A stretch of 64,000 nucleotides of DNA from Oxalicibacterium flavum (GTDB taxonomy: Bacteria > Pseudomonadota > Gammaproteobacteria > Burkholderiales > Burkholderiaceae_D), in NCBI RefSeq assembly GCF_014635065.1, contig NZ_BMCG01000001.1, forward strand, positions 434,001 through 498,000, in the 5' to 3' direction. This document shows positions 9,359 to 45,474 of the stretch, in pieces. The first letter of the stretch is position 1, and each line of letters starts with the position of its first letter. The notes under the pieces are model-generated. The model was not told where the DNA came from and made no database searches. It saw only the letters and a program-made list of their open reading frames with translations. The translations under genes were made by a program, and so were the position numbers.

Positions 9359-11968
9359 TCAGGTCCGCTCGGCCACCCAACCCTGCACCGAAGCCAGCGC
9401 CGCCGGCAAAGCTGCGGCATCGGTGCCGCCGGCCATTGCCATGTCGGGCTTGCCGCCGCCCTTGCCGCCGACCTGCTGCGCGACGAAGTTGACGAGCTCG
9501 CCGGCCTTGACCCTGGCGATGCTGTCGGCCGTCACGCCGGCCGCGATCTGCACCTTGGCGCCGTCAACGGCGGCCAGCACGATGGCGGCGGTCTTGAGCT
9601 TGTCCTTGAGCTTGTCCATCGTCTCGCGCAAGGTCTTGGCGTCGACGCCTTCGAGCCGTGCCGCGAGCACCTTGATGCCGTTGACGTCCACCGCCTGCGT
9701 CACCAATTCGTCGCCCTGCGACGACGCCAGCTTGCCCTTGAGCGCGCCGACTTCGCGTTCCAGCAGCTTCACCTGGTCCAGCACCTGCGCCAGGCGCGAC
9801 TGCAGTTCGGCCGCCGGCGACTTCAGCGTGGCGGCCGCGCTGTGCACGGTGGATTCCAGTTCCTGCAGATAGGCCAGTGCATTGGCGCCGGTGATCGCTT
9901 CCACGCGGCGCACGCCGGCCGCGACGCCGCTTTCGACCACGATCTTGAACAGGCCGATGTCGCCGGTGCGCTGCACGTGGGTACCGCCGCACAGTTCGCG
10001 GCTGCTGCCGATGTCGAGCACGCGCACGGTCTCGCCGTACTTCTCGCCGAACAGCATGACGGCGCCGGTCTGCTGCGCCGATTCGATATCCATCACGCGC
10101 GCCTGTGTGTCGGTGTTCGACAGGATTTCGGCGTTGACGCGCTTTTCGATTTCCAGGATCTGGTCATGCGTGACCGGCGCGTTGTGCGTGAAGTCGAAGC
10201 GCGTCTTGTCGGCGTCAACCAGCGACCCCTTCTGCTGCACGTGGTCGCCCAGCACTTCGCGCAGCGCCTTGTGCATGATGTGCGTGACCGAGTGGTTGCG
10301 CATGGTGGCGGCGCGGCGTTCGCCATCGACGGCGGCCTTGACCTTGTCGCCAACCTTGAGCGTGCCCTGCGTCTGCGTGCCGTGGTGGCCGAACACGTCG
10401 GCCTTGATCTTCTGCGTGTCCTCGACGCCGAACTGCACGCCTTCGGCCGCGATGATGCCCTGGTCGCCGACCTGGCCGCCGCTTTCTGCATAGAACGGCG
10501 TGGTGTCGAGCACGACGATACCGGACTGGCCTTCCTTCAGTTCGTTGACGGCGGTGCCTTCGAAATAGAGGCCGACCACGGTTGCCTCCTCTTCCAGATG
10601 CTCGTAGCCCGTGAAGACGTTGCCCGCGCCCGTGTATTCGACGGCGCGTTCCATCTTGAACTTGCCGGCGGCACGGCCCGCGGCCTTCTGTTTTTCCATC
10701 GCGGCTGCAAAGCCGGCTTCATCGACACTGACGTCGCGCTCGCGGCAGACGTCGGCCGACAGGTCGAGCGGGAAGCCGAAGGTGTCGTGCAGCTTGAAGG
10801 CGACTTCACCCGGCAGCACCTTGGCGCCGCCCGCGAGCGCCGCGTCGAGAATGTCCATGCCGTTGGCGAGCGTCTCGAAGAAGCGCTCTTCCTCGGCCTT
10901 CAGCACCTCGGTGATGCGTTGCGCGTCGGCCTTGAGCTTGGGATAGGCATCGCCCATCTGTTCGACCAGATCGGCCACCAGCTTGTGGAAGAACGGTTTT
11001 TTCTGGCCGAGCTTGTAGCCGTGGCGGATCGCGCGGCGGATGATGCGGCGCTGCACGTAGCCGCGTCCCTCGTTGGACGGGATCACGCCGTCGGCGACCA
11101 GGAAAGCGGTGGCGCGGATGTGGTCGGCGATGACCTTCAACGAGTTGTTGTCGAGATCGGCCGTGTTGGTCTCGCGCGCGGCCGCCTTGATCAGCGCCTG
11201 GAAGGTATCGATTTCGTAGTTGCTGTGCACGCCCTGCAGGATCGCGGCCAGGCGCTCGAGGCCCATGCCGGTATCCACGCACGGCGCCGGCAGCGGCTTG
11301 ACCGAGCCGTCCTCGGCCATGTCGAACTGCATGAAGACGTGGTTCCAGATTTCGATGAAGCGGTCGCCATCCTCATCCGGGCTGCCCGGAGGACCGCCGG
11401 CGATGTGCGGGCCGTGGTCGTAAAAGATTTCCGAGCAGGGGCCGCAAGGGCCGGTATCGGCCATCATCCAGAAATTGTCGCTCTTGTACTTGCCGCCCTT
11501 GTTGTCGCCGATGCGGATCACGCGCTCCGGCGGCAGGCCGATGTCCTTGGTCCAGATGTCGTAGGCTTCGTCATCCTCGTGATAGACGGTCGCCAGCAGC
11601 TTTTCCGGCGGCAGGCCATAGACTTTCGTCAGCAGCTCCCAGCCCCAGGCGATCGACTCCTTCTTGAAGTAGTCGCCGAAGGACCAGTTGCCCAGCATTT
11701 CGAAGAACGTATGGTGGCGCGCCGTATAGCCGACGTTTTCCAGATCGTTGTGCTTGCCGCCCGCGCGCAGGCAGGCCTGCACCGAGGTCGCGCGCACGTA
11801 GGGGCGCTTGTCCGTGCCGAGGAACACGTCCTTGAACTGCACCATTCCCGAGTTGGTGAACATCAGCGTCGGATCGTTGCCCGGCACCAGCGGACTGGAC
11901 GCCACGATGGCATGCCCCTTCGACTCGAAGAACTTCAGGAATTTTTCGCGGATTTCGGACGATTTCAT
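9359..11968 (-). CDS. alaS: Alanyl-tRNA synthetase
   Basis: Full-length class II synthetase of 869 aa. The N-terminal aminoacylation domain starts [19 protein letters not shown] and contains [23 protein letters not shown] (motif 2 region). The editing domain has the zinc-ligand pattern [16 protein letters not shown] and the downstream [13 protein letters not shown]. The C-Ala domain ends with the glycine-rich [15 protein letters not shown]. It charges tRNA-Ala and hydrolyses mischarged Ser- and Gly-tRNA-Ala. It appears monocistronic. No recA/recX pair lies upstream as in enterics. Confidence 0.98.
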
Positions 11969-43261: not shown

Positions 43262-44758
43262 ATGACTGAAACCGAATTCAACTCGCTGGCCGCGCAAGGC
43301 TACAACCGCATTCCGCTGGTCGCACAGGCCTTTGCCGATCTCGAAACCCCGCTGTCGCTGTATCTCAAGCTGGCACAGACGCGCAACGGTGGAAAAAACT
43401 CCTTCCTGCTCGAATCCGTGGTCGGCGGCGAACGCTTCGGCCGCTATTCCTTCATCGGCCTGCCCGCCAACACCCTGCTGCGCAGCTTCGGCACGCGCGT
43501 CGAGGTGGTGCGCGACGACCAGGTGATCGAAACCTTCGACGGCAATCCGCTCGATTTCATCGCCGACTATCAAGCGCGCTACAAGGTTGCGGTCGCGCCC
43601 GACATGCCGCGTTTCTGCGGCGGACTGGCCGGCTACTTCGGCTACGATGCCGTGCGCCACGTCGAGAAACGCCTCGCACACAGCGCGCCGAAGGACGACC
43701 TCGGCCTGCCGGAAATCCTGCTGCTGCTGACCGAGGAACTGGCCGTCATCGACAATCTCTCGGGCAAGCTTTATCTCATCATTTACGTCGATCCGGCGCA
43801 GCCGCAAGCCTTCGAGCAGGGCCGCAAGCGCCTGCAGGCACTGCGCGCCTCGCTGCACCAGGCGGTCGAAGCGCCGCTGACGCTGGCGTCCAAACGTACC
43901 GAAACCATCCGCGAATTCGACAAGGCAGATTACCTGGCCGCCGTCGCGCGCGCCAAGGAATACGTGATGGCCGGCGACCTGATGCAGGTGCAGATCGGCC
44001 AGCGCATCAAGAAGCCCTATACCGACGCGCCACTGACGCTGTACCGCGCGCTGCGCTCGCTGAATCCGTCGCCCTATATGTACTTCTACAACTTCGGCGA
44101 CATGCAGATCGTCGGCTCGTCGCCCGAGATCCTGGTGCGCAACGAGTCGATCGCCGACAGCAGGAAGAAGGTCACGATCCGTCCGCTCGCCGGCACGCGC
44201 CCGCGCGGCGACACGCCAGAGAAAGATGCCGCGCTGGCCAAGGAACTGCTGGCCGATCCCAAGGAGATCGCCGAACACGTGATGCTGATCGATCTCGCGC
44301 GCAACGACATCGGCCGCATCGCCGAGATCGGCAGCGTGAAGGTCACCGACAAGTTGGTCATCGAAAAGTATTCGCACGTGCAGCACATCGTCTCCAACGT
44401 TGAAGGCACGCTGAAGGATGGCCTGACCAATCTCGACGTGCTGAAAGCCACCTTCCCGGCCGGCACGCTGTCCGGCGCGCCGAAAGTGCGCGCGATGGAA
44501 ATCATCGACGAACTGGAACCGACCAAGCGCGGCATCTATGGCGGCGCCTGCGGCTACCTGTCGTTCGGCGGCGAGATGGACCTCGCGATCGCGATCCGCA
44601 CCGGCGTCATCAAGGACGGCATGCTTTACGTACAGGCGGCCGCCGGCATCGTCGCCGATTCGGTGCCCGAGATGGAATGGCAGGAAACCGAGAACAAGGC
44701 CCGCGCTGTGCTTAGAGCCGCAGAGCAGGTGCAGGACGGCCTGGATGGAGAAATCTGA
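43262..44758 (+). CDS. trpE: Anthranilate synthase component I
   Basis: Converts chorismate to anthranilate with ammonia from TrpG. The protein of 498 aa contains the chorismate-binding motifs: [69 protein letters not shown] and [10 protein letters not shown]. The N-terminal feedback region has LLESV (Trp-binding). CGGAGAAAACC precedes the ATG. Its last 18 codons ([18 protein letters not shown]) exist a second time, recoded, 151 nt downstream. In this proximal copy codons AGA and CTT are unlike the rest of the gene. Confidence 0.97.
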
Positions 44759-44909
44759 CATGGCAAATATTCCACAAGCGGGCATTGTTGGGGCGAAGGC
44801 TAACCTGCGCAAAGCGCAGGTTAAGCGTAGCGGCCGTAGCCACAACTTCCATCGCGCCGTATTGCGCGCAGCGGAACAGGTACAAGACGGACTGGACGGG
44901 GAGATCTGA
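44702..44909 (+). repeat. Recoded direct duplication of the trpE 3' end
   Basis: Copy A (44702-44758, end of trpE) and copy B (44853-44909, before trpG) each encode [18 protein letters not shown] and stop, and both continue with CATG. Of 57 nt, 42 match. Thirteen of 18 sense codons differ and every change is synonymous. Between them lies 94 nt of unrelated DNA with a 10-bp hairpin (44801-44810 with 44814-44823, loop AAA). The unit of 151 nt shifts the reading frame, so copy B is read in a separate small ORF. Confidence 0.9.
44760..44909 (+). CDS. 49-aa mini-ORF between trpE and trpG ending in a TrpE tail copy
   Basis: The ATG follows the trpE stop by one base (TGACATG), with GGAG of the trpE end acting as ribosome-binding site. 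The first 31 residues are basic and unrelated to TrpE ([20 protein letters not shown], then KRSGRSHNF). The last 18 repeat the TrpE C-terminus exactly. The end supplies GGGGAG and the same TGACATG junction to trpG, so translational coupling along the operon is kept. Whether the peptide does anything is unknown; the frame may simply preserve coupling through an inserted fragment. Confidence 0.6.
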
Positions 44910-44910
44910 C

Positions 44911-45474
44911 ATGCTGCTCATGCTCGACAATTACGACTCCTTCACCTACAACCTCGTGCAGTATTTCGGCGAGCTCGGCGAGGACGTCCATACGGTGCGC
45001 AACGACGAGATCACGCTGGAAGAAATCGAAGCACTGAAGCCGGAACGCATCTGCATTTCGCCCGGCCCGTGTTCGCCGGCCGAAGCCGGCGTCTCGATCC
45101 CGGTGCTGCAGCACTTCGCCGGCAAGCTACCCATCCTCGGCGTGTGCCTCGGCCACCAGGCCATCGGCGCGGCGTTCGGCGGCAAGGTGGTGCGCGCGCA
45201 GCAGGTCATGCACGGCAAGACTTCGCCGATCGAACACACGGGCGTCGGCGTCTTCAAGGACCTGCCGAGCCCCTATACGGTGATTCGCTATCACTCGCTG
45301 GCGATCGAGCGCGCCTCGCTGCCCGACTGCCTGGAAGTGACGGCATGGACCGCCGACGGCGAGATCATGGGGGTGCGCCACAAGCAGTTCGACATCGAAG
45401 GCGTGCAATTCCATCCGGAATCCATCCTGTCCGAACACGGCCACGCGCTGCTGAAGAACTTTCTTGTCCGCTGA
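44911..45474 (+). CDS. trpG: Anthranilate synthase component II (glutamine amidotransferase)
   Basis: Class I glutamine amidotransferase of 187 aa that supplies ammonia to TrpE. The triad is visible: Cys79 in [11 protein letters not shown], and His/Glu in [14 protein letters not shown]. It opens [21 protein letters not shown], the TrpG/PabA pattern. GGGGAG lies 7 nt before the start, inside the preceding mini-ORF. Longer in-frame starts upstream fall in the inserted segment and are not used. Confidence 0.96.

Follow-up and report, generated by a model that had tools for sequence, protein, structure and literature searches.

Our analyses showed that the 3' end of trpE occurs twice in a 64,000-nucleotide stretch of Oxalicibacterium flavum DNA (contig NZ_BMCG01000001.1, positions 434,001 to 498,000 of the forward strand; hereafter the window, whose own numbering is used), and that this repeat belongs to a family of hairpin units in which the end of a host gene is often duplicated. 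Probably the trpE repeat is a long-established copy of an insertion unit, hairpin-based and non-autonomous, that has spread through Betaproteobacteria. As judged from the aligned sequences, the units sit at G|A(A/C/T)AA, where the vertical line marks the junction, and a full unit is built from a copy of the host segment after the junction, often an inverted copy, and a conserved core. The copied host segment is a gene tail through its stop codon, sometimes continuing into the start of the next gene. The inverted copy (stem 1) corresponds in many units to the first 8-19 nt of that segment, and the core has the layout CGGCGNAGGCTAAC-stem 2-GTTAAGCGNAGCGGCCGNAGCC, with the native continuation directly behind it. 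With this layout, copy A preserves the C-terminus of the upstream gene and copy B the leader that belongs to the downstream gene. In the window, the parts are placed as follows (ORF, open reading frame).

43262 to 44758, + strand: trpE, whose last 19 codons (18 plus stop) are copy A
44690/44691: left border of the unit, G|AGAAC, a single-base departure from the usual A(A/C/T)AA
44691 to 44841, + strand: inserted 151-nt unit, its borders taken from 52 tail-duplicated cores and unit-free congeners
44702 to 44758, + strand: copy A, the trpE tail that ends TrpE
44747 to 44750, + strand: GGAG, by sequence a Shine-Dalgarno-like site of the mini-ORF; GGAG or GGGG stands at the equivalent place in other units
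44760 to 44909, + strand: 49-codon relay mini-ORF, beginning 1 base past the TrpE stop and finishing 1 base ahead of the TrpG start
44780 to 44790, + strand: position of the stem 1 arm (complement of the start of copy A), decayed here to about 5 bp by eye
44791 to 44804, + strand: left part of the core, consensus CGGCGNAGGCTAAC; the window has GGGCGAAGGCTAAC
44802 to 44822, + strand: stem 2, AACCTGCGC-AAA-GCGCAGGTT, with compensatory changes among relatives
44820 to 44841, + strand: right part of the core, GTTAAGCGNAGCGGCCGNARCC
44841/44842: right border of the unit, ...GTAGCC|ACAAC
44853 to 44909, + strand: copy B, the native trpE end and now the end of the mini-ORF; GGGGAG at 44898-44903 serves trpG
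44911 to 45474, + strand: trpG

Copies A and B start 151 nt apart and encode an identical 18-residue TrpE tail. They differ at 15 of 57 nt and in 13 of the 18 sense codons, or 13 of 19 codons if the stop is counted, with no amino acid change; if the positions were random, 15 of 15 synonymous changes would have a probability of about 7e-10. TGACATG closes both copies, A before the 49-codon ORF and B before trpG. On all these points a preliminary description of the sequence was confirmed. The ungapped repeat reaches 61 nt in total, and between the copies lies a perfect 9-bp hairpin (44802-44822) that the description did not contain.

The same 151-nt unit is found at trpE in 3 of 13 genomes of the window's genus (G000, G009 and G011; G numbers denote genomes and L numbers loci), while 9 of the 13 have a plain trpE-trpG junction that resembles the end of copy B. 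These unit-free congeners bear out two earlier proposals, namely that a unit was inserted at the 3' end of trpE without damage to the tail of the enzyme, and that the native end is copy B together with the trpG leader. Larger islands at the junction in relatives would also have supported integration. An island containing the unit was not found among the congeners; G006 (L007) has an unrelated 0.8-kb insert between trpE and trpG, with a 224-aa membrane-type ORF, for which Pfam gave no match, and no tail duplication. In a family-wide trpE search of 294 genomes, the matches listed included at least 14 genomes from three genera, one genome (G111) apparently being Paucimonas lemoignei, with the unit at the same place in 1-3 tandem copies each (two or three in G129, G170 and G180). 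Carriers are scattered on a 26-taxon tree of the trpE body and trpG, with at least eight state changes, and the carrier G009 is the sister of the non-carrier G001.

In the two genera compared (3 and 7 carriers), the synonymous divergence of copy A was 0.375 versus 0.37-0.46 for the gene body in one genus, and 0.57 versus 0.36-0.66 in the other; that of copy B and trpG was similar or higher. The trpE units there hence look old and often lost. The trpE tail of the non-carrier G200 has, by eye, an A-like start and a B-like end, as would be expected if a unit had been lost through recombination between A and B. We rejected low linker divergence as a sign of recent transfer, since copy A matches the divergence of the gene body and the linker contains the conserved core.

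The core is dispersed over many genomes and host genes. Of 399 genomes of the order, 29, among them that of the window, contain its right part, GTTAAGCGNAGCGGCCGNARCC, in up to 15 copies each; the reversed pattern gave 0 matches in the same set. A scan of named genomes returned at least 120 core stretches; among the 80 listed, those with a class name were nearly all from Betaproteobacteria, with one from Thermomonas, and a scan of IMG/VR added 9 stretches. The upstream stretch, mostly a host gene end, is repeated behind the core at a score of at least 40 in 56 of 150 cores, a set that includes several units of one array and 20 loci picked from core-rich genomes. The cross-locus null at this score, same-gene pairs included, was 2%. 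In 38 of the 56 the repeat starts no more than 2 nt from the right end of the core, and in 18 it starts further in. At this score, repeated tails identified fifteen protein genes (trpE, gapA, ftsW, glmS, smpB, an alaT-like aminotransferase gene, nrdA, dksA, metK, gyrB, a branched-chain amino-acid permease gene, an FAD-linked oxidase gene, ccmE, yggX and folE2), plus parts of tRNA genes; pstB and a norD-like gene scored 30-34. The names were assigned from the tail peptides rather than from a database, and some repeats stayed nameless. In some ftsW and trpE units the copied segment passes the stop codon into the start of murG or trpG. One core searched against plasmid records and the window's unit searched against phage records gave no match.

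Among 52 aligned tail-duplicated cores, 42 have G|A(A/C/T)AA at the host junction. Of the other ten, six are units behind another core, three are shifted alignments and one is G277; the window's own junction is G|AGAA. Placed ahead of the core, the stem 1 arm is the reverse complement of the sequence that starts at the junction, and it measures 13 bp in G141 and in unit 1 of G170. A blind search of 300 nt upstream found an arm of at least 8 bp for 55 of 156 usable cores (edge artefacts L174 and L236 left out), 51 of these 55 being preceded by GA, versus 36 of 3120 control points (1.2%), of which 3 had GA ahead. The stem 1 arms are either 1-5 nt apart, as in minimal hairpins, or at least 13 nt apart, which leaves room for the host segment. 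Among 52 units the arm matched copy A better than copy B in 26, both equally in 24, and A worse in 2.

Across the two stems of 16 trpE units, 16 cells were double-changed versus 5.1 after shuffling, and the covariation score was 0.175 versus 0.108, a value reached by 0 of 500 shuffles. Stem 2 pairing is kept in 126 distinct segments with several pair types. GNA triloops make up 42 of 81 stem 2 triloops and 41 of 65 short stem 1 loops, many of them in related copies. GNA loops are exceptionally stable in DNA, so their frequency points to single-stranded DNA. An Rfam scan of 11 loci gave six microRNA matches, all below the gathering scores, and no family match.

At gapA, two related genomes contain 3 and 2 units, and the site is plain in 8 of 10 genomes read (12 searched). 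The copies at glmS agree inside G625 and inside G408, while the two genomes differ from each other; agreement within a genome is also seen at gapA in G321 and at trpE in G141 and G180. Because A and B are so similar in several young cases, local copying, or homogenisation, is likelier than distant import. In three genomes of one genus, G321, G540 and G569 (L299, L300 and L301), the same glmS site holds a second core type, GGGCGGAACTCA-stem-TGAGTGGAGACC, which follows the same layout and has an arm of its own that matches the target. A scan for the exact pattern yielded 3 of 399 genomes, at those glmS loci alone. This suggests that the mechanism proposed below would be independent of one particular core sequence.

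We picture an insertion that would proceed via hairpins of single-stranded DNA, with the host segment copied at the site. Snap-back copying could give stem 1 and repeated copying could give A and B, the enzyme would be encoded elsewhere and act in trans, and recombination between A and B might remove units again. More tentatively, we propose that the units may be mobile DNA of a new kind, a bare hairpin whose insertion relies on copying templated by the host and which acquires its own arm and a spare gene end with each copy. At G|AMAA, the inserting strand would copy a piece of the target, fold back and copy the beginning of that piece in reverse, which would yield stem 1; it would then take up the hairpin core and resume in the target. 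Each copy would write its own site-matching arm and a spare gene end, so that insertion into essential genes would be harmless, and a relay ORF could keep translation of the operon running. None of the known kinds that we tested, and none that we are aware of, combines a target-matching arm with a long local duplication. If a known transposase turned out to drive the units, they would count as a form of small palindromic element.

The relay itself is best seen at trpE. The mini-ORF begins with an ATG at the TrpE stop and runs open to a stop that touches trpG in every one of the 19 trpE units (14 genomes), and it could pass ribosomes on from one gene to the next. Two trpE units with a 21-nt deletion (unit 3 of G129, and G111) kept the frame. 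In units of two genera (unit 3 of L065, and L079), a 21-nt in-frame deletion takes out the left arm of stem 2. At ftsW, all 8 units that a script scored as coupled to murG are open, and so is 1 of 3 scored as uncoupled. The first 28 codons of the trpE mini-ORF are nearly neutral (pN/pS 0.75-0.83), while codons 5-20 of copy B are conserved as protein (pN/pS 0.03-0.06). The conservation of B may stem from selection on the mini-ORF, from gene conversion from A, for which the near agreement of A and B in G141 and G180 is relevant, or from exchange with unit-free alleles. The preliminary description had also considered that the mini-ORF might be an old gene, with which the 19 open frames agree; the nearly neutral first 28 codons do not. 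For the window's mini-ORF, Pfam returned one sub-threshold match.

Several observations speak against an insertion unit of this kind, or against a general relay. By a scripted call, which misjudges later units of arrays, the frame was open in 26 of 32 units counted as coupled and in 18 of 34 counted as uncoupled, and the relay hence is not general; the ftsW units L105 and L106 lack an open frame, and that of L249 does not terminate in the ccmE tail. No repeat at score 40 was present for 94 of the 150 cores, and no arm of at least 8 bp within 300 nt for 101 of the 156. Two of five covariation measures did not exceed the shuffles: values at least as high came from 71 of 500 shuffles for pairs changed on both sides and from 477 of 500 for further pair types. 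With a z-score of -1.25 the RNA folding of the window's linker is unremarkable. The window's own genome has a single core, with stem 1 decayed, and in gapA of G569 copies A and B differ. Many of the genomes are metagenome-assembled and copies at the same gene share ancestry, so that the counts are not independent. Finally, a transposase, an integrase or a gene-bearing version was not found in the loci searched, which extended up to 8 kb upstream but often no more than 2 kb; a second tail or arm in these loci was represented by tandem, inverted or spurious matches alone. Mobility is therefore inferred from distribution only. The 1.17 kb between two cores in L133 was considered as a gene-bearing unit and discarded, as it has an opposite-strand ORF inside and no repeated tail.

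Alternatively, the repeat could be an RNA element domesticated by the trp operon. TrpG would then be tuned relative to TrpE by the two hairpins together with the relay ORF, and this function would be the reason for their retention. The stems of the trpE units covary even though synonymous sites differ by about 0.4-0.6, the trpE mini-ORF is always open, and the amino acids of B codons 5-20 are kept. We nevertheless find this explanation unlikely, because presence is patchy on the 26-taxon tree, the same core occurs at gapA, glmS, smpB and tRNAs, the first 28 codons are close to neutral, and conversion with A or exchange with unit-free alleles could also explain the conservation of B.

Known enzymes were compared with core carriage. 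RAYT (PF01797) does not track the core, with 19 of 31 carriers versus 13 of 17 non-carriers positive and no match in the core-rich G312 and G439; by this distribution, a RAYT-driven repetitive extragenic palindrome (REP) was rejected. A retroelement driven by reverse transcriptase was dismissed as well, PF00078 being present in 5 of 15 carriers examined. Integron integrase (E<=1e-60) was more common in core-positive genomes, 20 of 29 versus 128 of 370 core-negative ones (one-sided Fisher p 3e-4), a comparison confounded by lineage. The units could also be an integron by-product, the core acting as a minimal, attC-like folded site moved by the integron integrase. The hairpins and tandem arrays would fit, and so would GTTAAGC: attC boxes have the consensus RYYYAAC for R'' and GTTRRRY for R'. 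However, GGCTAAC, the left box, does not complement GTTAAGC, L boxes are absent and the stem follows directly. The unit borders lie at CC|AMAA rather than at G|TT, the attC-like sites beside the G439 integrase look different by eye, and 9 of the 29 core-positive genomes, the window's among them, gave no integrase match. An automatic attC scan of five loci found none, with settings too strict to be informative. Overall, we judge an integron origin to be quite unlikely.

The preliminary description favoured a lost island, i.e., a phage-like integrase or island that brought in copy A as a recoded tail, with the old end remaining on the far side and a scar as the only trace. Phages and islands of the icd type do integrate in the 3' ends of protein genes, and as with these, the end of the target gene is present again on the gene side, the gene tail being restored with copy B as the native end. 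Paucimonas copy A also is closer to copy A of the window's genus (0.84-0.93) than B is to B (only 0.71-0.73), and A is unlike B in gapA of G569. Against this stand one core at many unrelated host genes whose own tails are repeated, and loci in which neither integrase, cargo nor a gene-bearing version was found. Import of copy A, the other half of the proposal, sits poorly with a copy A whose divergence matches that of the gene body in the two genera compared and which is nearly equal to B in several young units, gapA of G569 being the case that differs. A lost island consequently appears improbable.

Plain tandem duplication or slippage of the replication machinery at trpE, or a faulty assembly, can hardly account for the repeat, for all that tandem units exist: the empty site offers no source for a core that is common to unrelated genes, which refutes simple duplication as the origin of the first unit, and an assembly error, raised as a caveat in the preliminary description, is very unlikely given orthologous units in two other genomes of the genus (L003 and L004) and in two other genera. 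Tandem duplication likely is the way from one unit to several.

Among described systems, Rickettsia palindromic elements are characterised as short palindromic repeats that can sit in frame within genes (PMC3733652). One likely case of such resemblance is the core of the IMG/VR contig L262, which at 9372-9393 apparently lies in frame in an ORF (NIKEN...). To our knowledge, these elements neither repeat a host gene end nor contain an arm complementary to their own site. REPs are likewise small dispersed hairpins, from which our units differ in having no RAYT link, and we know of no long host duplication in REPs. Integron cassettes resemble the units as tandem elements that end in a folded hairpin, and core carriers are richer in integrase; box structure and borders differ, and the cargo of a unit is the host's own gene end. 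The difference from icd-type phages and islands lies in the many unrelated targets of one core and in the integrase and cargo, which were not found. Miniature inverted-repeat transposable elements are given in the same source as non-autonomous, short (70-300 bp) and without coding capacity (PMC3733652). The units share all three properties, whereas their host duplications are longer and variable. No terminal inverted repeats of insertion sequences (IS) were noticed in the units, no systematic comparison with IS having been made. Literature searches, with bioRxiv and most subscription journals outside their coverage, yielded no published description that we recognised.

If the insertion-unit reading is true, a class of minimal insertion unit would exist that gives the gene it enters a spare end. 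Such units would offer a system in which to study DNA copying driven by hairpins and the translational relay between genes that overlap. They also call for caution in annotation, since some short ORFs that end in the tail of a housekeeping protein would be such units. With trpE, gapA, ftsW, glmS, smpB, nrdA, dksA and gyrB among the targets, effects on important genes are directly testable.

Some further core loci have features of their own. In G200 (L083), beside a trpE end that has no unit and a few codons into trpG, the contig changes by eye to sequence resembling an IS30-type transposase. Near-identical antisense cores lie at what appears by eye to be the start of a phage structural gene in L257-L261, L263-L265 (IMG/VR), L156, L193, L199 and L224, loci that comprise phage contigs and bacterial genomes. 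In Oxalobacter sp. SURF_1 (L158 and L200), minimal cores lie within hairpins of the GGGGTCAG...CTGACCCC type that resemble RAYT repeats; no RAYT-like ORF was recognised between the two minimal cores of L158. In L117-L123, L206, L225, L245 and others, multi-copy minimal units occupy one fixed place of another dispersed repeat, ...GCG|A(A/C)AACGNAGTT(T/G)...core...AACACCGC(G/C)CAACGC.
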